Made by a program: the position numbers and the translations under genes
Shown: positions 6,814-39,970 of the stretch, one piece after another
Position numbering within the stretch: the first letter of the stretch is position 1
Layout: each line of letters begins with the position of its first letter
The notes under the pieces: generated by a model
Databases searched by the model: none
The model's input: only the letters and a program-made list of their open reading frames with translations
What the model was told of the DNA's origin: nothing
Assembly: GCA_944322375.1 (NCBI GenBank)
Contig: CALUOX010000007.1
Span: forward strand, 1-44,903
Reading direction: 5' to 3'
DNA: 44,903 nt
Source of the DNA: an uncultured Alistipes sp.
GTDB taxonomy: Bacteria; Bacteroidota; Bacteroidia; Bacteroidales; Rikenellaceae

Positions 6814-6887
<74 letters not shown>

Positions 6888-26394: not shown

Positions 26395-27303
26395 TCACTG
26401 CAGCAGAAACTCCGCGACAAGAAAATAGTGGTCGCTGGGGTATTTCACCCCTTCGTGATCGCGGACGATCTCGGCATCCTTCACCTCAATCCCGCCGCGA
26501 TAAAAAATGAAATCGATCCGGTGTGGTCCTTGTTTGGGAACATAGGCATCACCTTGAAAGGCATGCGCCGTCAATCCCACCTCCGCCGGGCCGTGAATCG
26601 TCTCATACATCTCGCGCCAGCCATCGACCGTGCGGATGTAAGCGATCGGCGCGCTGCCGATCCCCGCGTTGAAATCGCCGCACAGGATCTGCGGGAAATC
26701 GGGAGCGTACTGCGCGCACTCCTCCATCACCATGCGGATCTGCTCGCGGCGCGCCTCGTCGCTCTTGTGGTCGAGATGCACGTCCAATACGCGCAGCTCG
26801 CGGCCCGAACGTTTGTCGCGCAGCCGCACCCAGTTGCAGTGGCGCGCCCGCGTGGTGTTCCACGAACAGCTGCCGCCAATGAGCGGCGTCTCCGACAGCC
26901 AGTAGCACCCTGCCGAGACGAACTCGTAGCGGTCGCGGCGGAAGAAGATCACGTTCTTGCCGATGAAGTGATACCCTTCGGTATAGGGATCCATCTCCGG
27001 CCCCGCGAATCCGTAGGGCATGTAGCCGCGCAACTTCTCCTTCAGATAGGCGTAGGAGTCGTAGATCACCTCCTGCATGCAGATGATATCGGGACGCCGC
27101 GAAAGGATCGTCCCGACACACAGATCACGGCGGTTCTCCCAGACCCGTTCCGGGTAGGGAGCGTCGGCTTCGAGCCCCGTGATGCGGATGTTGCACGTCA
27201 TCACACGGTGGAGGCCGTCGTCGGATTCAGCCTTTTTGCCTGCTTCGGCGGTACCGGCGAGCGACAGCAGTACACCGGTAATTATCAGAATCCTGCGGAA
27301 CAT
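26395..27303 (-). CDS. secreted endonuclease/exonuclease/phosphatase-fold hydrolase
   Basis: A 302-residue metal-dependent phosphoesterase-fold protein with a signal peptide (MFRRILIITGVLLSLAGTAEA). The catalytic set is complete: VMTCNIRI (Asn), CMQEV (metal-binding Glu), VLDVHLDH (Asp-His), CGDFNAG and a final SDHYF (Asp-His). The family cleaves phosphodiesters or phosphomonoesters in DNA, lipids or inositol phosphates; the substrate is not evident. The start is 3 bases after the stop of the upstream oxidoreductase, so it is the last gene of the operon. Being exported, it could release a phosphate-bound substrate for the cytosolic enzymes; that is inference. Confidence 0.88.
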   Translation of the reverse strand: MFRRILIITGVLLSLAGTAEAGKKAESDDGLHRVMTCNIRITGLEADAPYPERVWENRRDLCVGTILSRRPDIICMQEVIYDSYAYLKEKLRGYMPYGFAGPEMDPYTEGYHFIGKNVIFFRRDRYEFVSAGCYWLSETPLIGGSCSWNTTRARHCNWVRLRDKRSGRELRVLDVHLDHKSDEARREQIRMVMEECAQYAPDFPQILCGDFNAGIGSAPIAYIRTVDGWREMYETIHGPAEVGLTAHAFQGDAYVPKQGPHRIDFIFYRGGIEVKDAEIVRDHEGVKYPSDHYFLVAEFLLQ

Positions 27304-27306
27304 ACG

Positions 27307-28677
27307 CTACTCTCTGAAATATACACCCTCCGCCTTGAGCGACTCTTGCAGTTTTCGGACGTCGAGGTCGCGCAGTTCGACATTCTCCTTGATGGAGAGT
27401 GCCGCAGCCTTGCCCGCAGCTTCGCCGAGAGCCATTGCAGGAGCCATGACGCGGGCGGAAGCCAGTGCGAGGTGCGTCATCGACACGTTGCGTCCGGCGA
27501 CGATGAGACCGTCGATTTTCTGCGGTATCAGACAGCGGTACGGGATGTCGTAGCAGTCCGGACACCAGTAGAGCGAGCAGTCGCCGCCCACCGGATGGTG
27601 AAGATCCACCGGATAACTTGCGACGGCGATGACGTCGTCGAACCTGGCGCAGTTGAAGATGTCGTCCTCGGTCAGAATGTATTCCCCGACGATGCGACGG
27701 GTTTCGCGGATGCCCATGAACGGAGCGACGCGGTCCACGTATGCGTTCTCGAAACCGGGGATGTATGCTTTCAGATAGCGTACGATCTCCTCGTTCTGCT
27801 CGGCGCAGATGATCTCGCCCTGCGTGTACTGTGCAGGGTCGGTTGCGTCGATGCCGTTGACGCGCGACATGTTCACCCACCACTCGTCGGGAGCCATGCC
27901 CGTCATGAAGATGGTACGCTCGACAGGGAGTTTGTAGCCTGCCTCGCGGGCCTTCTTGATTTGGTTGCGGAAGCCGACGAACGTACAGTTGTCGTCCGCG
28001 CGGAAGAACTCGTTGGGGATGAAGTCGATGTCGTATACGTCCGGATGGTCGGCCACGGCGTCGCGCAGTTTGCGCGAATCGACTCCGCGCATCGAAAACA
28101 TGAGCGTCGGAGGCTGCGGGATGCCCTTTTCGTTGCCGTAGTTCATCGGTGCGCCTGCACGGTAGGCGATGTCGCCGTCGCCCGTACAGTCGATGACGCG
28201 CTTGGCGAGAATCGCTTCGCGCCCCTTTTTGGAGTCGATGATTACGCCTTTGACGGTGTTGCCCTCCATGATGACGTCGGTTGCGAAGGCGTACATCAGC
28301 AGGTCGATGCCGCACTCCTTGATAATCTGGAATGCCAGATGTTTCGTTCCCTCGGGATCGATCATCGTAAGGCTGACGTGGAGCGGACATGCACGGTGGT
28401 GCGTAGCCAGCCCCTTCTCTTGCAGACGCTCGACGAACTGCAACGGCAGACCCTTGATGACGACGTTGCCTTTGCGCCCGAGGAATCCGAGCAGCGGCAG
28501 ACCGATGGTCATGTTGCCGCCCAAGAAACCGCGGCTCTCGACGAGCATTACTTTGGTGCCTTTCTCCAAAGCAGCCGCTTGGGCTGCCATAAGTCCCGCA
28601 GGGCCTGCGCCCACGACCAGGACATCCACCTCCGCACGCACCGGAATCCGCCGGGCCGGTTCTTCAATCTGTTTCAT
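27307..28677 (-). CDS. FAD-dependent oxidoreductase, tandem copy 1
   Basis: A cytosolic 456-residue flavoenzyme of the FAD_oxidored type. It has the dinucleotide-binding motif DVLVVGAGPAGLMAAQAA, an E at the end of the second strand (LVESRGFLGGN), the conserved RVIDCTGDGDIAYRAGA segment, and VAGRNVSMTHLALASARVMA near the C-terminus. Start MKQIEEPARRIPVR is chosen because it aligns with the start of the neighbouring paralogue; in-frame ATGs at 28719 and 28731 would add a lysine-rich extension. It carries GGDCSLYWCPDCYDIPYR, with a CxxC not kept in the paralogue. No signal peptide. It follows copy 2 by 126 bases. The substrate is unknown; a polyol or sugar acid is guessed from the operon. Confidence 0.87.
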   Translation of the reverse strand: MKQIEEPARRIPVRAEVDVLVVGAGPAGLMAAQAAALEKGTKVMLVESRGFLGGNMTIGLPLLGFLGRKGNVVIKGLPLQFVERLQEKGLATHHRACPLHVSLTMIDPEGTKHLAFQIIKECGIDLLMYAFATDVIMEGNTVKGVIIDSKKGREAILAKRVIDCTGDGDIAYRAGAPMNYGNEKGIPQPPTLMFSMRGVDSRKLRDAVADHPDVYDIDFIPNEFFRADDNCTFVGFRNQIKKAREAGYKLPVERTIFMTGMAPDEWWVNMSRVNGIDATDPAQYTQGEIICAEQNEEIVRYLKAYIPGFENAYVDRVAPFMGIRETRRIVGEYILTEDDIFNCARFDDVIAVASYPVDLHHPVGGDCSLYWCPDCYDIPYRCLIPQKIDGLIVAGRNVSMTHLALASARVMAPAMALGEAAGKAAALSIKENVELRDLDVRKLQESLKAEGVYFRE

Positions 28678-28803
28678 TTTCGGTATCGGTTGATGTTTTA
28701 TTTTGAATTTATTCTTCATTTTTCTCGCCATGGCATGGCTCGCGCAAGCGCGGCTCTGCTCATTCGGCTCAGCGAAAACGTCGGATGAATTAATCGGGTA
28801 ATT

Positions 28804-30165
28804 CTATCCCAAATAGGCGCCCGTCGCACGCAATTCGGCGCGCAGCGCCTCCACGTCGAGGTCGGCGGGCTGCACGCCCGCCTTCAAGGCCAGCCGTGCG
28901 GCGCGTCCGGCCGCTTCGCCCAACGCCATGCAGGTCGACATGACGCGCGTCGAAGCCATCGCTTCGTGGTTCATCGAAGAGCAGCGGCCCGCCACCAGCA
29001 GTCCCGCCACCCGTTCGGGCAGCAGGCAGCGGTAGGGAATGTCGTAACTGTCGTCGCAGAAGTGCATCGTGCAGTCGCCGCCCTTGGCGTGGTGGATGTC
29101 CACCGGATAGCCCGCCACGGCGATCGCATCGCCGAAGCGGCGACACGCGATGATGTCCTCGGCCGTGAGGACGTATCTGCCCACGATCACGCGGCTCTCG
29201 CGGATACCCATGAAGGGAGCGACCTTCTCGATACGGGCGTCGGCGAAGCCCGGCACGAACTCGCGCAGGTAGCGCGCGATCTCGTAAATCTGTTTGCGTC
29301 CTTCGATCTCCCCGTAGGTATAGCTCTCGGGACGGGTCGAATCGACGCCGCTCACGCGCGTCATGTTGACCCAGATCTCGTCGTCGGCAAGTCCCGTGAT
29401 GAGGATCGTGCGCGCCACCGGAATACGGTATCCGGCCGCCTGCGCCTGCCGGATCTGCGTGCGCAGCCCCACGGTGATGAATTTGCCCGTGCGGAACTGT
29501 TCGGGCGGCATGACGTCCATGTCGTAGACGTCGGGATGTCCGACGATCGCGTCGCGCAGCCGCTGCACGTCGACACCCTTCATGCAGAACATCAGCGTCG
29601 GCGGCTGCATGCCGCCTTCGGCGTCGCCCTTGCGGCACTCGACGCCCGCACGGAAGGCCACGTCGCCGTCGCCCGTGCAGTCGATGACCGTTTTGGCCAG
29701 GATCGCTTCGCGGCCCGCCTTGCTCTCGACGACGACGCCCTTCACCGCATCCCCCTCGCGGATCGCATCGGCGAAAAAGGTGTAAAGCAATACCTCGACG
29801 CCCTTCTCCTCCATGATTTCGAGCGCCGTGCGCTTGACCTCCTCCTCGTCGATGATCGTCAGGCTCATGTGATTCTTGCAGGGGCGGTGTTCGCTCGCCG
29901 CGCCGCGTGCACGCAGCCGGTCGATGAACCGCTGCGCCGACCCCTCGATGATCTGGTTGCCCTTGCGGCCCAGGAAACCGAGAATCGGCAGGCCGATCGT
30001 AAGGTTGCCGCCCAGAAAACCGCGGCTCTCGACGAGCATTACACGCAGGCCGTCGCCCGCAGCCGCCTCGGCGGCCATGATGCCGGCGGGGCCGCCGCCC
30101 ACGACCAGAACGTCCGCCTCGGCGCGGACGGGAATGTCGCGTGCGGGTTCCTTTATCGTCTTCAT
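28804..30165 (-). CDS. FAD-dependent oxidoreductase, tandem copy 2
   Basis: A 453-residue paralogue of the next gene, alike over its whole length (roughly half the residues by eye). Motifs: ADVLVVGGGPAGIMAAEAAA for FAD, LVESRGFLGGNLTIGLPILG, TVIDCTGDGDVAFRAG, and GGDCTMHFCDDSYDIPYRCL, where copy 1 has CPDC. ATG 30165 (MKTIKEPARDIPVRAEADVL) is the natural start; the longer frame upstream is antisense to the transporter gene. It begins 22 bases after the transporter stop. Two diverged tandem copies suggest different substrates or a two-subunit enzyme. Confidence 0.87.
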   Translation of the reverse strand: MKTIKEPARDIPVRAEADVLVVGGGPAGIMAAEAAAGDGLRVMLVESRGFLGGNLTIGLPILGFLGRKGNQIIEGSAQRFIDRLRARGAASEHRPCKNHMSLTIIDEEEVKRTALEIMEEKGVEVLLYTFFADAIREGDAVKGVVVESKAGREAILAKTVIDCTGDGDVAFRAGVECRKGDAEGGMQPPTLMFCMKGVDVQRLRDAIVGHPDVYDMDVMPPEQFRTGKFITVGLRTQIRQAQAAGYRIPVARTILITGLADDEIWVNMTRVSGVDSTRPESYTYGEIEGRKQIYEIARYLREFVPGFADARIEKVAPFMGIRESRVIVGRYVLTAEDIIACRRFGDAIAVAGYPVDIHHAKGGDCTMHFCDDSYDIPYRCLLPERVAGLLVAGRCSSMNHEAMASTRVMSTCMALGEAAGRAARLALKAGVQPADLDVEALRAELRATGAYLG

Positions 30166-30187
30166 AGCAATTCGACAGTTTATTCGT

Positions 30188-31486
30188 TTATTTCGTCTCC
30201 GGCGACTCGGGACGCACCATCTTCCACAACACGACGGCCGCGATGATGTGGAGCGTACCCATGATCGCGAAGAGCGTATACCACGCTTCGGACGGGATCG
30301 ACCCGACGAACTGGTTGAACACCACGCTGCCCAGTGCGCCCGCACCGCAGCAAATGCCCATCACGCTGGCCACGTTCTTGATCGGGAAGGTCTCGGCCAG
30401 CACGACCGGCAGCGTATAGAGCCAGCTGAGGCACATCACCGCCACGAGGCTGAAAATCGCCACGACCAGCCCCACACGCCATGCGAACGAGAGCGTCTCG
30501 CTGGCGCCGACATAAGGCACCGCCGCACAGAGCGGTGCGACGACGACCACCGCCATCAGCATGACCTTGCGCGCCGACAGTGCGCTGCGACCCCGCTTTA
30601 TCATCGAATCCGACCAGACCGAGGTGAGGATTCCGCCCAGCGCACCGACGAGGAACGGGATGCCGCCGATCCACTGGATCATGTTGAGCGTCTGTTCGTG
30701 CGTAAGGTTCTGCGCCTCGCCCATGCCGCGCAGGTAGCCCGGCAGCCAGAAACAGCAGAAATACCACACGGGGTCGCTTATCAGACGGATCAGGAAGGCG
30801 CCCCACAGCGTGCGCGTACGGAAAAGCCCGCCCAGCGTGAAGGACTTCTGCTCCTCGCCGGAGGAGGTCATCCGGTCTACGTTGACCGTACGGTCGAGAA
30901 TCTCCTGCGACGGCGTGCGGTAGACGACCATCCACAGCCCCGCGATGACGAGACCCGCCACACCGGCCACGAGGAACACCTCCTGCCAGTTCGAAAACCA
31001 GCGCATGAGCCATGCGATCACCAGCGGTGCGATCACCGCGCCCAGCGATCCGCCGACCGTACAAAGGCTGTTGGCCGTCGCACGCTGCCGCTTCTCGAAC
31101 CAGAGCGTCACGGCCACCAGCTGTCCGGCGAAGATCGTCGGCTCGGCCAGTCCGAGGATTCCGCGGCACATGGCGAACTGCCAGACGGTCTGCGACATAC
31201 CGCCTCCGATGCAGGCCAGCGACCAGACGGCGATGCCCGCGAGCATCACCCGCTTGGGGCCAAACCGGTCGACCAGAATCCCCGATACGGGGTACATCAG
31301 CGCGTAACAGATCAGGAAGACGTTGACGATCCATGCGTACTGCATGTCGCCGATGCCGAAATATTCCAGAATTTCGGGTTTGAGGATCGAGAGCAGCTGC
31401 CGGTCGAGGTAGTTGCAGATGATGGCGATGAACATGGTCGCCACGATCACCCACTTGCGTTTGTTCGGGTCTTTGAGTAGATTCAT
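30188..31486 (-). CDS. MFS transporter of the organic-anion (ACS, ExuT-like) type
   Basis: A 432-residue inner-membrane carrier with about 12 hydrophobic helices. The beginning, VIVATMFIAIICNYLDRQLL, and the loop 2-3 motif DRFGPKRV (MFS signature) resemble hexuronate and other sugar-acid importers of the anion:cation symporter family, with a typical ATANSLCTVGGSLGAVIAPL in helix 5. Substrate is not defined by sequence; a sugar acid or related polar compound is suggested. It begins 15 bases after the kinase stop and precedes oxidoreductase copy 2 by 22 bases, so it is part of the operon. Confidence 0.88.
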   Translation of the reverse strand: MNLLKDPNKRKWVIVATMFIAIICNYLDRQLLSILKPEILEYFGIGDMQYAWIVNVFLICYALMYPVSGILVDRFGPKRVMLAGIAVWSLACIGGGMSQTVWQFAMCRGILGLAEPTIFAGQLVAVTLWFEKRQRATANSLCTVGGSLGAVIAPLVIAWLMRWFSNWQEVFLVAGVAGLVIAGLWMVVYRTPSQEILDRTVNVDRMTSSGEEQKSFTLGGLFRTRTLWGAFLIRLISDPVWYFCCFWLPGYLRGMGEAQNLTHEQTLNMIQWIGGIPFLVGALGGILTSVWSDSMIKRGRSALSARKVMLMAVVVVAPLCAAVPYVGASETLSFAWRVGLVVAIFSLVAVMCLSWLYTLPVVLAETFPIKNVASVMGICCGAGALGSVVFNQFVGSIPSEAWYTLFAIMGTLHIIAAVVLWKMVRPESPETK

Positions 31487-31501
31487 TGGTTGATTGAAGT
31501 T

Positions 31502-33172
31502 CTATCGATTGTTTTTCAGTCGTTCGGTGAAGGCGCCCACGGCGCGGTAACGGGCATAGCGTTCGTTCAGCACTGCCTGCCGCGACACGTCGGGCACGTA
31601 GCTGCACGACGCGGGGGCGCAGAGCGCCTGCTGCGCCTCGGTGACCGAAGGGTAGAGTCCCGCGATGGTAGCCGCGTGGATCACCGCCCCCATGGCACCG
31701 GCCTGTTTGCAGTCCGAGACGTCGATGCGCATCCCCGTTACGTCGGCCAGAAGTTGCATGACGAAGGGGGATTTCTGTGCAATGCCGCCGACTCCGATCA
31801 GCCGTTCGATGGCAATGCCGTGTTCCATCAGATGATCGAGGACCCGTTTCGTCGCGAATGCCGTCGCTTCGGCGAATGCGTAGTAGATCTCGGGAGCCGA
31901 GGTCGAGAGGTTCAGCCCCGTGAGCGTTCCCGTGAGCGAACTGTCGGCGAAGGGCGAACGGCGGCCGTTGAGCCAGTCGGTAGCCAGCGGCGCGTCGGCG
32001 CGCAACGGCAGTGCGGCAGCGCCCTGCGTGAGCGCATCCATGATCCCCGCCTCCGTTTCGGCGATCAGCCGGTCGCGCGTTGCGTCATCGACCAGCCGTG
32101 TCTTTGCGAGAATCTCCCGCAACGGCCAGCACAGCAACCGTTTGAACCACGCATAGACATCCCCGAAAGCAGAGAGTCCGGCTTCGAAGCCGATCATGCG
32201 GGGCAAAATCGATCCTTCGACCTGGCCGAAGACCCCTTCGATGACCCGATCTCCGATCTGTTCGACCGGAGCCACCGCCATGTAACAGGCCGACGTGCCG
32301 AGATTGAGCACCACCGTACCGGGTTGGATTCCGGCACCGACGGCTCCCGAATGGGAGTCGATGTTCCCGACACCGACGGCTATTCCGGGCCGAAGGCCCA
32401 ATTTTTCGGCCCACTCTTCGGTCAGGGAGCCTGCGGCGACGTCGCAGCCGTAATTTTCCTTCGGCAGATGGCGCACGATGGGCAAGAGCAGCGGGTCGAG
32501 CTCCTCAAAGAAGGATTCGGGCGGGAAACCGCCCCACTTCTCCGACCACATCAACTTGGCTCCGGCCACACAATGTCCCATCCTTACGCTTGCAGCGTCG
32601 GGACAACCCGTCAACACGGCGGGGATCCAGTCGCAGAGTTCGACGGCCGACCAGGCATCGCGCCGCAGGGCCTCGTCGCGCCGCAGCAGATGCAATATTT
32701 TCGACCAGAAACACTCAGCCGAATAGTTGTTGCCGGTAAAACAGGCATAATTGACCGGCGACGCAGCGCAGAGGGCATTGATTTCGTCCGATTCCGCCTG
32801 TGCCGTATGGTCTTTCCACAGCACGAACATCGCATCGGGATTTTCCGCATAACGGTCGTACAAGGCCAGCGGCACACCGTTCCGATCGGTCAGGCAGGGG
32901 GTACTGCCCGTCGAATCGACCGACAACGCGACAATCTGCGGGACGATTTCCGGATGCCGTTCCGTCACGCTGCGTACTGCAAGCTGCAATGCGTCGAGAT
33001 AATCCTGAGGATGCTGCCGGAATCGCATGGCAGCAGGGTCGCTGTAAAGGCCCCTGCTCCAACGGGAATAGGGTGCTACTTCGGTATCGATCTCCCTGCC
33101 TGTAAGGGCATCGACCAACAATGCGCGGACAGAGTCTGTTCCATAATCCAGACCGATGACATAACGGCTCAT
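31502..33172 (-). CDS. araB: FGGY-family carbohydrate kinase, ribulokinase type
   Basis: A 556-residue cytosolic kinase closely resembling L-ribulokinase AraB: ATG 33172 (MSRYVIGLDYGTDSVRALLV) starts the first ATPase strand, followed by QIVALSVDSTGSTPCLTDRN, the AraB-like YAENPDAMFVLWKDHTAQAE, VELCDWIPAVLTG, and in the C-terminal half NLGTSACYMAVAP and LIGVGGIAQKSPFVMQLLAD. These are clearer matches to ribulokinase than to xylulokinase. Ribulokinases accept ribulose and some xylulose and pentitols. araA (isomerase) and araD (epimerase) are not in the window, and the partners are a transporter and two oxidoreductases, so its physiological substrate here may be an oxidised polyol. First gene of the operon; own promoter and leader hairpin. 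Confidence 0.88.
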   Translation of the reverse strand: MSRYVIGLDYGTDSVRALLVDALTGREIDTEVAPYSRWSRGLYSDPAAMRFRQHPQDYLDALQLAVRSVTERHPEIVPQIVALSVDSTGSTPCLTDRNGVPLALYDRYAENPDAMFVLWKDHTAQAESDEINALCAASPVNYACFTGNNYSAECFWSKILHLLRRDEALRRDAWSAVELCDWIPAVLTGCPDAASVRMGHCVAGAKLMWSEKWGGFPPESFFEELDPLLLPIVRHLPKENYGCDVAAGSLTEEWAEKLGLRPGIAVGVGNIDSHSGAVGAGIQPGTVVLNLGTSACYMAVAPVEQIGDRVIEGVFGQVEGSILPRMIGFEAGLSAFGDVYAWFKRLLCWPLREILAKTRLVDDATRDRLIAETEAGIMDALTQGAAALPLRADAPLATDWLNGRRSPFADSSLTGTLTGLNLSTSAPEIYYAFAEATAFATKRVLDHLMEHGIAIERLIGVGGIAQKSPFVMQLLADVTGMRIDVSDCKQAGAMGAVIHAATIAGLYPSVTEAQQALCAPASCSYVPDVSRQAVLNERYARYRAVGAFTERLKNNR

Positions 33173-33636: not shown

Positions 33637-34554
33637 ATGACCCATCTGAAAGGAATCGTCTATGCCGCCTTGTCGTCGTCAACTTTCGGGCTGGCGCCCC
33701 TGTTCACCGTCATCCTGCTGCGAGAGGGGCTGTCGCCTTTCGACGTGCTGACCTATCGGTGGGGCGTCGCATCGCTGGCCCTGCTGCCTTTCGTCCTGGT
33801 ATCCGGCTGGCGGTTCCGGCTCGACCGGCGCAACTTCGGCGCCGTATTCCTGTTGAGTCTTTTGCGTGCAGGCTGTTCCTTCAGTCTTGTTCTGGCCTAC
33901 GCCAACATCGCAACGGGAGTGGCATCGACCATCCATTTCCTCTATCCGTTGGCCGTAGCGGTCGCCATGACGCTGCTTTTCCACGAACGGTTCTCCGGAG
34001 TTCTCTTCACTGCAATCGTAATTTCGCTGGCCGGAGCCGTTCTGCTTTCGGCGGGAGAGATCCGGTCGGAAGGGGGCAATCCGACAATCGGCATCGTCGC
34101 CGCCTGTTTCTCCGTCGTTTCGTATGCGGGATACATTATCGGCGTCCGCAAGACGCGCGCCGCACAGGTCGAATCGACCGCCCTGACCTTCCTGGTGATG
34201 GCCATCGGCGCAGTGCTTTTCGCCGTTGCGGGGTCGCTCACAACGGGACTGCATGCAGTAACGGAGGGCCGCACATGGGGGAATATTCTTGGGCTGGCAT
34301 TACCGGCCACCGCCATTTCGAACATCGCGCTGGTCAAGGCGATCAAAGCCATCGGACCGACACTGTCCTCGATTCTCGGAGCGCTGGAGCCGCTCACGGC
34401 CGTTGCAATCGGAGTCCTTTACTTTGGAGAACCCCTTACAATAGCCGGTATAGCCGGCATGGCACTGGTCATCATCGCCGTTATGATTGTCGTCATTTAC
34501 GACGGGAAGAGACCGACGGCCACAACGCCCATTCCTCCCGCCTCGGAATTGTAA
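33637..34554 (+). CDS. EamA/DMT-family membrane transporter
   Basis: A 305-residue inner-membrane protein with ten hydrophobic helices in two EamA repeats. The first repeat begins GIVYAALSSSTFGLAPLFTV and the second near ACFSVVSYAGYIIGVRKTRA; the second ends with GALEPLTAVAIGVLYFGEPL, the hallmark of this fold. Members export amino acids, nucleosides or other metabolites; the substrate cannot be inferred. It is divergent from the araB operon and has its own promoter. A short proline/threonine-rich tail follows the last helix. Confidence 0.87.
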   Translation: MTHLKGIVYAALSSSTFGLAPLFTVILLREGLSPFDVLTYRWGVASLALLPFVLVSGWRFRLDRRNFGAVFLLSLLRAGCSFSLVLAYANIATGVASTIHFLYPLAVAVAMTLLFHERFSGVLFTAIVISLAGAVLLSAGEIRSEGGNPTIGIVAACFSVVSYAGYIIGVRKTRAAQVESTALTFLVMAIGAVLFAVAGSLTTGLHAVTEGRTWGNILGLALPATAISNIALVKAIKAIGPTLSSILGALEPLTAVAIGVLYFGEPLTIAGIAGMALVIIAVMIVVIYDGKRPTATTPIPPASEL

Positions 34555-39610: not shown

Positions 39611-39734
39611 AAGTCTGATCCGGGCGTGCGGGATGCGTGACCATGGAATACGGCTCCGGAACCGGGCGCGGGGCGGATGGCCGCCGCAAAGGGAAAAATG
39701 CAGCTGCGGAATGTGGTCCTCTCTGTTTTTTTCG

Positions 39735-39742
39735 TACCTTTG
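39735..39742 (+). promoter_or_regulatory. -7 box of the B12 uptake operon
   Basis: TACCTTTG, a full match to TAnnTTTG; -33 region TGTG is weak. Start near 39749, immediately before the riboswitch. Confidence 0.6.
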
Positions 39743-39749
39743 CGGTGTC

Positions 39750-39970
39750 GAGGTTCGGAACGGGAGAAGACGCTTCTCCTCCGATCAAAAGGGAATCCGG
39801 TGTAAATCCGGAACAGTGCCGCTGCTGTAAGTCCTTCTCTTCGCGAGATCAGGTTCGTCGCACTCTTTGCCACTGGCCGTTGAGGCCGGGAAGGCGCGGC
39901 GGATGGGACGAGTCAGAAGACCTGCCCGACAGGCGGATGCCGTTGTGTCCCGGATGCAGGACAGCAACGG
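39750..39970 (+). ncRNA. cobalamin (B12) riboswitch
   Basis: The conserved core is plain: GGGAATCCGGTGTAAATCCG and then GAACAGTGCCGCTGCTGTAA near 39791-39830, GCCACTGG at 39869-39876, GGGAAGG near 39888, and the B12 box AGTCAGAAGACCTGCC at 39911-39926. Downstream, CCGTTG-TGTCC (39940-39950) pairs with GGACA-GCAACGG (39959-39970) with one bulge, a likely part of the expression platform. No T run follows, so translational control or a more distant signal in the 198 bases before the btuG start is likely. It governs a BtuG-like and BtuB gene, as expected: B12 would switch off its own uptake. Confidence 0.95.

Follow-up and report, generated by a model that had tools for sequence, protein, structure and literature searches.

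We describe an operon of five genes that probably serves, judging by its gene content, to scavenge carbon and phosphate from alditol phosphates. The operon lies on the minus strand of contig CALUOX010000007.1 (assembly GCA_944322375.1) from an uncultured Alistipes sp.; the whole analysed stretch of 44,903 nucleotides is called 'the window' below. Its genes encode a kinase of the ribulokinase family (KIN), an importer of the major facilitator superfamily (MFS), two PF12831 flavoproteins (FADa and FADb) and a phosphoesterase of the endonuclease/exonuclease/phosphatase family (EEP). A route through L-ribulose and L-ribulose-5-phosphate has, in our estimate, about an even chance of being the function of this predicted gene set. 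The five open reading frames (ORFs) are intact and are separated by 15, 22, 126 and 3 bases; with the grouping also conserved elsewhere, the five-gene single-strand unit delineated in an earlier sequence-only reading is confirmed.

In the proposed pathway, secreted phosphoesterases (EEP in the window; calcineurin-like, histidine acid and glycerophosphodiester phosphodiesterase (GDPD) enzymes in related operons or the same genomes) would liberate an alditol bound in phosphate esters or diesters, and the MFS protein would import it. A PF12831 flavoprotein would oxidize the alditol to L-ribulose, with electrons passing to the quinone pool or ferredoxin. The ribulokinase (a good family assignment with a predicted activity) would convert L-ribulose to L-ribulose-5-phosphate, from which AraD, encoded elsewhere in the genome behind a GDPD gene, would make D-xylulose-5-phosphate, a step that draws its support from co-occurrence. 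AraA would not be used, since none was found by the search described below. In a kinase-first variant, the alditol would be converted to alditol-5-phosphate and then oxidized by the FAD enzyme, giving the same product. The order of release, import, FAD-linked oxidation to a ketose and phosphorylation had been put forward in the sequence-only reading and fits the gene content; a sugar acid, which that reading had allowed as a substrate beside a polyol, is now less likely, as AraD points to a pentitol. The earlier outline is partly supported, and it is sharpened by AraD, by the missing AraA and by a phosphate theme that comes from relatives of the operon.

A scan of 200 genomes of the same family yielded 76 kinase matches of at least 300 bits outside the window, of which 54 were fetched and classified and 22 were not fetched. 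Loci were assigned to the 'operon type' by their neighbours; this class coincides with the 16 best-scoring matches, plus the window (n = 17). Within 7 kb of the kinase, an EEP gene was present in 17/17 operon-type loci, FADa in 15/17, a calcineurin-like phosphoesterase in 13/17 (12 close relatives with at least 57% identity and one distant 28% match in L046; the window locus and that of sister genome G099 have none) and an MFS gene in 7/17. Each of these four genes, as well as histidine acid phosphatase, was found at 0/38 of the other ribulokinase loci within the same distance. The operon is no chance cluster, and co-occurrence across genomes, which had been set beforehand as a test of the five-gene unit, is borne out by EEP and FADa. 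AraA was present in the fetched stretch at 18 of the 38 other loci; the operon-type and FADa loci scanned had none.

A third type of ribulokinase locus (L062-L067 and similar ones) has neither AraA, which is missing from 20 of the 38 other loci, nor phosphatase genes. A relative of the SSF symporters occurs within 7 kb of the kinase in 18 of these 38 loci.

Starting from the flavoprotein instead, a scan of named genomes for FADa detected 52 loci, 45 of which were left after reduction at 95% identity. Within 7 kb of FADa there was a kinase gene in 33 of the 45, at least one phosphatase gene in 34 (EEP in 21, histidine acid phosphatase in 16, calcineurin-like phosphoesterase in 10) and an MFS gene in 18; a second PF12831 gene was present in 21. 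The hosts are Alistipes and other Bacteroidales (from ruminant and horse guts among others) and, outside Bacteroidota, two Verrucomicrobiota (Ereboglobus, L121 and L131) and one member of Coriobacteriia (L150). The distribution is patchy, as a phylum-wide scan at an E-value of 1e-100 found FADa in 3 of 395 genomes, the window genome included; in the two further genomes, the FADa relatives are 61-63% identical and each has adjoining MFS and EEP genes.

Both kinase and phosphatase are missing within 7 kb of FADa at five of the 45 loci: L115, L116 (with MFS), L143, L152 and L155 (short, with SSF). Such loci, like the combination of ribulokinase and AraD without AraA, would suit a scheme in which L-arabitol or another free pentitol is converted to L-ribulose and the phosphoesterases merely supply phosphate or act on another substrate. 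We consider this scheme decidedly unlikely given the constant presence of EEP at operon-type kinase loci and, in the window, its start 3 bases after FADb.

The support for L-ribulose-5-phosphate as an intermediate comes from AraD. No match to AraA_N was found in the whole window genome (2.5 Mb in 139 contigs, 98.27% complete). An araD gene is present there on another contig (NF009003, 390.9 bits, cut-off 331; TIGR00760, 385.5 bits, cut-off 389.1), and its ORF starts 30 bases behind a GDPD gene. The sequence-only reading was thus correct that araA and araD are absent from the operon; of the possibility it had raised that both lie elsewhere in the genome, the part concerning araD stands, araD co-occurring with the operon, and the part concerning araA does not.

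We profiled 55 genomes of the same genus taken from the kinase scan: 17 with the operon, 25 without a full-length kinase and 13 with another ribulokinase. AraD (TIGR00760) was found in 14/17, 1/25 and 3/13 genomes of these groups, respectively, and AraA in 0/17, 0/25 and 3/13. The three genomes with AraA are the same three that have AraD in the non-operon group; AraD was found in 0/10 of the AraA-free genomes with a non-operon kinase. A second sample comprised the genomes of 35 of the 52 named FADa loci. At an E-value of 1e-50 or better, AraD was present in 20 of the 26 genomes with FADa and kinase together and in one of the nine with FADa and no kinase near (23/35 overall at an E-value of 0.001); AraA was found in one of the 35, the Coriobacteriia genome. 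With kinship ignored, Fisher's test gave P-values of 2e-7 (14/17 versus 1/25) and 9e-4 (20/26 versus 1/9). On the simplest reading, the kinase product would be a 2-ketopentose 5-phosphate. The presence and co-occurrence of AraD suggest that it is L-ribulose-5-phosphate and narrow the substrate to something oxidized to L-ribulose, most simply a pentitol.

AraD neighbourhoods were fetched from 20 of the 35 AraD-bearing genomes (14 operon genomes and 21 named ones). AraD adjoins a G1PDH (AraM)-like Fe-ADH gene in 8 of the 20 loci (L183-L189 and L192), and a GlpT-like carrier gene in six. In Ereboglobus, AraD is located away from the operon, with GDPD, G1PDH-like and GlpT-like genes, and a ribulose-phosphate-3-epimerase (Rpe)-like gene stands directly before KIN (NF004076, 169.2 bits, cut-off 165; TIGR01163, 179.9 bits, cut-off 212.6). 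This Rpe-like gene and the absence of AraD from some operon genomes would be expected of a D-series route, in which ribitol or D-arabitol is oxidized to D-ribulose or D-xylulose, a promiscuous ribulokinase makes a D-pentulose 5-phosphate and AraD is incidental; a passage in the literature describes AraB as able to phosphorylate D-ribulose (PMC12307932). Since AraD and the kinase go together in both genome samples above, we regard the D-series route as improbable.

The kinase itself is assigned with some confidence to a family. KIN scores 593.6 bits with the NCBIfam ribulokinase model NF003154 (above the cut-off of 428) and 491.3 bits with TIGR01234 (under the cut-off of 583.25); its nearest solved chain is the ribulokinase 3qdk (E-value 8.3e-83). 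Residues K206, D272 (in GNIDSH) and E330 of KIN, aligned with the lysine, aspartate and glutamate that we take to be sugar-site residues of 3qdk, are conserved in this alignment and across the operon clade. That clade was defined in a quick tree built from 84 of 92 kinases (rows at least 98% identical were removed; L113, a copy of L045, had been excluded earlier), where the operon kinases form one group of 44 rows with SH-aLRT support of 100, apart from other ribulokinases. The labelling of the tree marked four loci as araA-linked; as AraA is near 18 of the 38 other loci, the group labelled 'other' is mixed.

Ordinary L-arabinose catabolism with scattered genes could be argued from the score of KIN above one NCBIfam ribulokinase cut-off and from the presence of araD. 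This explanation is nearly refuted: AraA is found in none of the 17 operon genomes, that of the window included, and the kinases of all 18 fetched loci with AraA nearby lie outside the operon clade. Judged by the aligned residues, the pocket of the operon kinases is related to that of the arabinose-pathway kinases and not identical with it.

Two kinases linked to FADa, those of L150 (Coriobacteriia) and L156, are not members of the operon clade. Both are on long branches, so that their exact placement is unsure, and both retain the GQ motif of the non-operon kinases; ribulokinases of separate origin thus seem to have come to sit beside the same flavoprotein. In an uncultured member of Prevotellaceae (L164, 8297-11359, plus strand), KIN and FADa are fused in a single ORF of 1020 codons.

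The phosphate part of the proposed pathway is suggested mainly by relatives of the operon. The nearest solved chains to EEP are 3g6s (97 bits, putative) and mannosyl-6-phosphatase 4c1r (62.5 bits over 150 residues only). The latter, presumably of Bacteroides origin, belongs like the window enzyme to the EEP family and acts, by its name, on a sugar phosphate, whereas the window EEP is assigned by family only. Relatives carry, ahead of the kinase, one to three calcineurin-like phosphoesterases (MetallophosN/C) whose starts are signal-like. A histidine acid phosphatase gene is located inside the operon in L046, L052, L060, L134, L146 and L162; in rumen Bacteroidales, a histidine phosphatase with a weak His_Phos_2 match (19.5 bits in L138, cut-off 23.6) and the catalytic motifs kept belongs to a divergent gene set. 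At the genome level, His_Phos_2 genes were found in 17/17 operon genomes versus 6/25 without a full-length kinase and 6/13 with another ribulokinase. In L146 and L162, the operon has GDPD, G1PDH-like, GlpT/UhpC-like and HAD-IIA phosphatase genes as neighbours; in L157, such genes accompany MFS-FADa-EEP with no kinase. This gene set resembles a glycerol-phosphate polymer kit. L046/L160 and L149 have a SusC-like gene, recognized by eye, next to the operon. The phosphatase genes of the relatives and of the window genome point to phosphorylated polyols, possibly oligomeric, as the common theme.

The window genome has 12 MetallophosC matches. One of its loci, L200 (G000:C1:46000-65000), contains a SusC-like gene (by eye and BLAST), an ORF at the SusD place, three metallophosphoesterases and a HAD-IIA phosphatase, and looks like a phosphoester utilization locus. 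Another, L088 (G000:C3:40000-54632), is a candidate second polyol-phosphate locus; it encodes a metallophosphoesterase, a histidine acid phosphatase, a PfkB kinase, a Zn-alcohol dehydrogenase (Zn-ADH), an SSF symporter and a PF12831 protein, and has an ORF that combines domains of a LacI-type regulator and of PF12831.

Ribitol phosphate is proposed tentatively as the source of the alditol, with the chances somewhat against it. Our best guess at the likeliest origin is ribitol from ribitol-phosphate polymers, e.g. teichoic acids of gut Gram-positives. Ribitol is favoured for two reasons: Gram-positive walls and capsules are rich in its phosphodiesters, and ribitol oxidation can yield L-ribulose. 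A broader picture, which we put forward as a rather unlikely one, is that gut Bacteroidota (with some Verrucomicrobiota and perhaps Coriobacteriia) may possess a dedicated system for eating alditol-phosphate wall polymers of Gram-positives. This system would comprise secreted phosphodiesterases and, in part, SusC-type import; ribitol would be turned into L-ribulose by a new family of flavin alditol dehydrogenases and processed by the AraB-type kinase and AraD, while GDPD, a GlpT-like carrier and G1P dehydrogenase would deal with glycerol-phosphate units. If so, araL and araM of Bacillus would be relatives of the same alditol-phosphate toolkit. The proposal offers a possible function for one branch of the PF12831 flavoproteins and could explain why gut bacteria carry ribulokinase and AraD without arabinose isomerase, a combination that annotation would read as arabinose use. 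The suggested niche of the Alistipes relatives and uncultured rumen Bacteroidales would be phosphorylated alditols, possibly the teichoic acids of their neighbours. No description of such a pathway was found in the open-access literature searched.

Several observations weigh against a route from alditol phosphates through L-ribulose-5-phosphate. The profiles of AraD and operon carry no correction for relatedness. AraD is missing in 3 of the 17 operon genomes (G138, G110 and G038, the last two of which also have an operon locus devoid of flavoproteins) and in 6 of the 26 named genomes with FADa and kinase; no AraD match in the 55-genome profile, including those adjacent to AraA, reaches the TIGR00760 cut-off. 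The Coriobacteriia genome has both AraA and AraD, so its kinase may serve arabinose. Near the pocket, kinases of the operon clade have E-x-GL or E-x-GM in place of EAGQ and xxK in place of GHK, so that their substrate may not be L-ribulose. The four profiled genomes with an E-x-GM kinase (loci L052, L060, L146 and L154; genomes G110, G038, G614 and G619) all have no good AraD match, and these kinases are perhaps sub-branches with another substrate.

The remaining contrary points concern the phosphoesterases and the flavoprotein. The window operon encodes a single phosphoesterase, and a histidine acid phosphatase gene is near the kinase in just 3 of the 17 same-genus operon loci. Rv0805 and purple acid phosphatases are weak matches of the model of a calcineurin-like enzyme; the metallophosphatase matches in its fold search are weak and do not tell phytase, diesterase and teichoic hydrolase apart. 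GDPD and metallophosphoesterase genes were seen, with no teichoic-acid-specific enzyme demonstrated. The fold search with FADa gave no substrate hint, as the 50 matches listed are all generic flavoproteins, and sequence and fold searches found no PF12831 member with a close solved structure; in the literature searched, one paper names the family.

Two further points against ribitol phosphate would suit inositol. In L146, the histidine acid phosphatase of the operon is MINPP-like by sequence (155 bits to MINPP chains, 218 bits to 7r5y), and in L088 of the window genome the PfkB kinase is IolC-like (89 bits, cut-off 300) and the Zn-ADH IolM-like (181 bits, cut-off 450), both below cut-off. Use of inositol phosphates (phytate) would have phosphatases release myo-inositol, flavoproteins oxidize it to inososes and the kinase act on the ring or on a ring-opened product. 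The finding of His_Phos_2 in every operon genome is in line with this, and part of a survey reports no classical iol clusters in Bacteroidaceae and Prevotellaceae, one Bacteroides species being excepted elsewhere in it (PMC9430895). In all 34 aligned histidine phosphatase ORFs, RHGxR is present and HD stands instead of HAE. A section of the literature on these enzymes gives HAE as a frequent proton-donor motif of MINPPs and HD as common in non-MINPP members (PMC7762957), so the HD motif weighs against the MINPP subclass and not against phytase activity generally. Inositol chemistry, moreover, explains neither the ribulokinase nor AraD or Rpe. We therefore demoted phytate from the place of leading substrate on account of the HD motif and of AraD and Rpe, which suggest a pentose product; this alternative is now unlikely, although the least so of the four considered here.

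The route preferred here, from an alditol phosphate through L-ribulose, has likenesses to known systems. Enteric ribitol/D-arabitol operons combine a dehydrogenase, an FGGY kinase and a permease. Klebsiella rbt/dal resembles the window operon in uniting an alditol importer, an alditol dehydrogenase and an FGGY pentulokinase in one unit, a likeness that for the window concerns families only. A context of ribitol 2-dehydrogenase, permease and D-ribulokinase is described in the article cited above for AraB and D-ribulose (PMC12307932). The rbt/dal dehydrogenase is NAD-dependent, whereas the window operon has PF12831 flavoproteins instead and no NAD-dependent dehydrogenase; it differs further in its AraB-type kinase, its phosphoesterase gene and the proposed exit through AraD. 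Canonical araBAD shares with the window an AraB-type kinase and, elsewhere in the window genome, AraD; in contrast to araBAD, no AraA was found in that genome, the kinase belongs to a separate clade and oxidation would replace isomerization. The AraD neighbourhoods with a G1PDH-like gene have a counterpart in the araD-araL-araM segment of Bacillus subtilis. The likeness lies in AraD beside the G1PDH-like Fe-ADH gene and in a HAD-IIA phosphatase near G1PDH in L146, L157 and L162; the loci of the relatives differ from that segment in having GDPD and a GlpT/UhpC-like carrier joined to them and no AraA.

The gene families of the operon are listed below. The best NCBIfam model for the MFS protein is the D-galactonate transporter TIGR00893 (177 bits, under the cut-off of 395). 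FADa, proposed as the alditol dehydrogenase, is 60% identical to FADb; the two may differ in the alditol that they act on, and loci with one, two or three PF12831 copies exist. The AlphaFold2 model of FADa has a pLDDT of 87.6, and among the 50 Foldseek matches listed for it the TM-score is at most 0.48 by query length and at most 0.54 by target length.

Genes of the window operon, in order of transcription (FADb is taken to start at the ATG homologous to the FADa start codon)
Gene	Position	Strand	Length	Assignment and remarks
KIN	31502-33172	-	556 aa	FGGY kinase, ribulokinase family; first operon gene
MFS	30188-31486	-	432 aa	importer, D-galactonate-transporter type; PF07690 (MFS_1), 165 bits
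FADa	28804-30165	-	453 aa	PF12831 flavoprotein, 404 bits; no signal peptide by eye
FADb	27307-28677	-	456 aa	PF12831 flavoprotein, 388 bits
EEP	26395-27303	-	302 aa	endonuclease/exonuclease/phosphatase-family phosphoesterase; PF03372, 60.7 bits; signal-peptide-like start by eye

In rumen Bacteroidales (L139, 814-6279, and similar loci), a divergent gene set comprising an Fe-S aldo-keto reductase, a polyferredoxin, a histidine phosphatase and, in part of the loci, FADb faces GreA, HIT, kinase and FADa genes (families were read on the L138 homologues). The divergent set may provide the flavoprotein with an electron path. In the window genome, a FADa paralogue with 84% identity (L086; G000:C49, 1375-5110) lies beside a gene of the class II fructose-bisphosphate-aldolase family and a gene for an AraC-type regulator, neighbours that suggest a second ketose route supplied by this flavoenzyme family.

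The operon is also present in the sister genome G099, with per-gene identity of 91-100%. In the window, the operon adjoins a divergent EamA transporter gene with its start at 33637; a cobalamin riboswitch (39733-39943, plus strand, 96.6 bits) and a tRNA gene (6814-6887, plus strand, Rfam match) were also found there.

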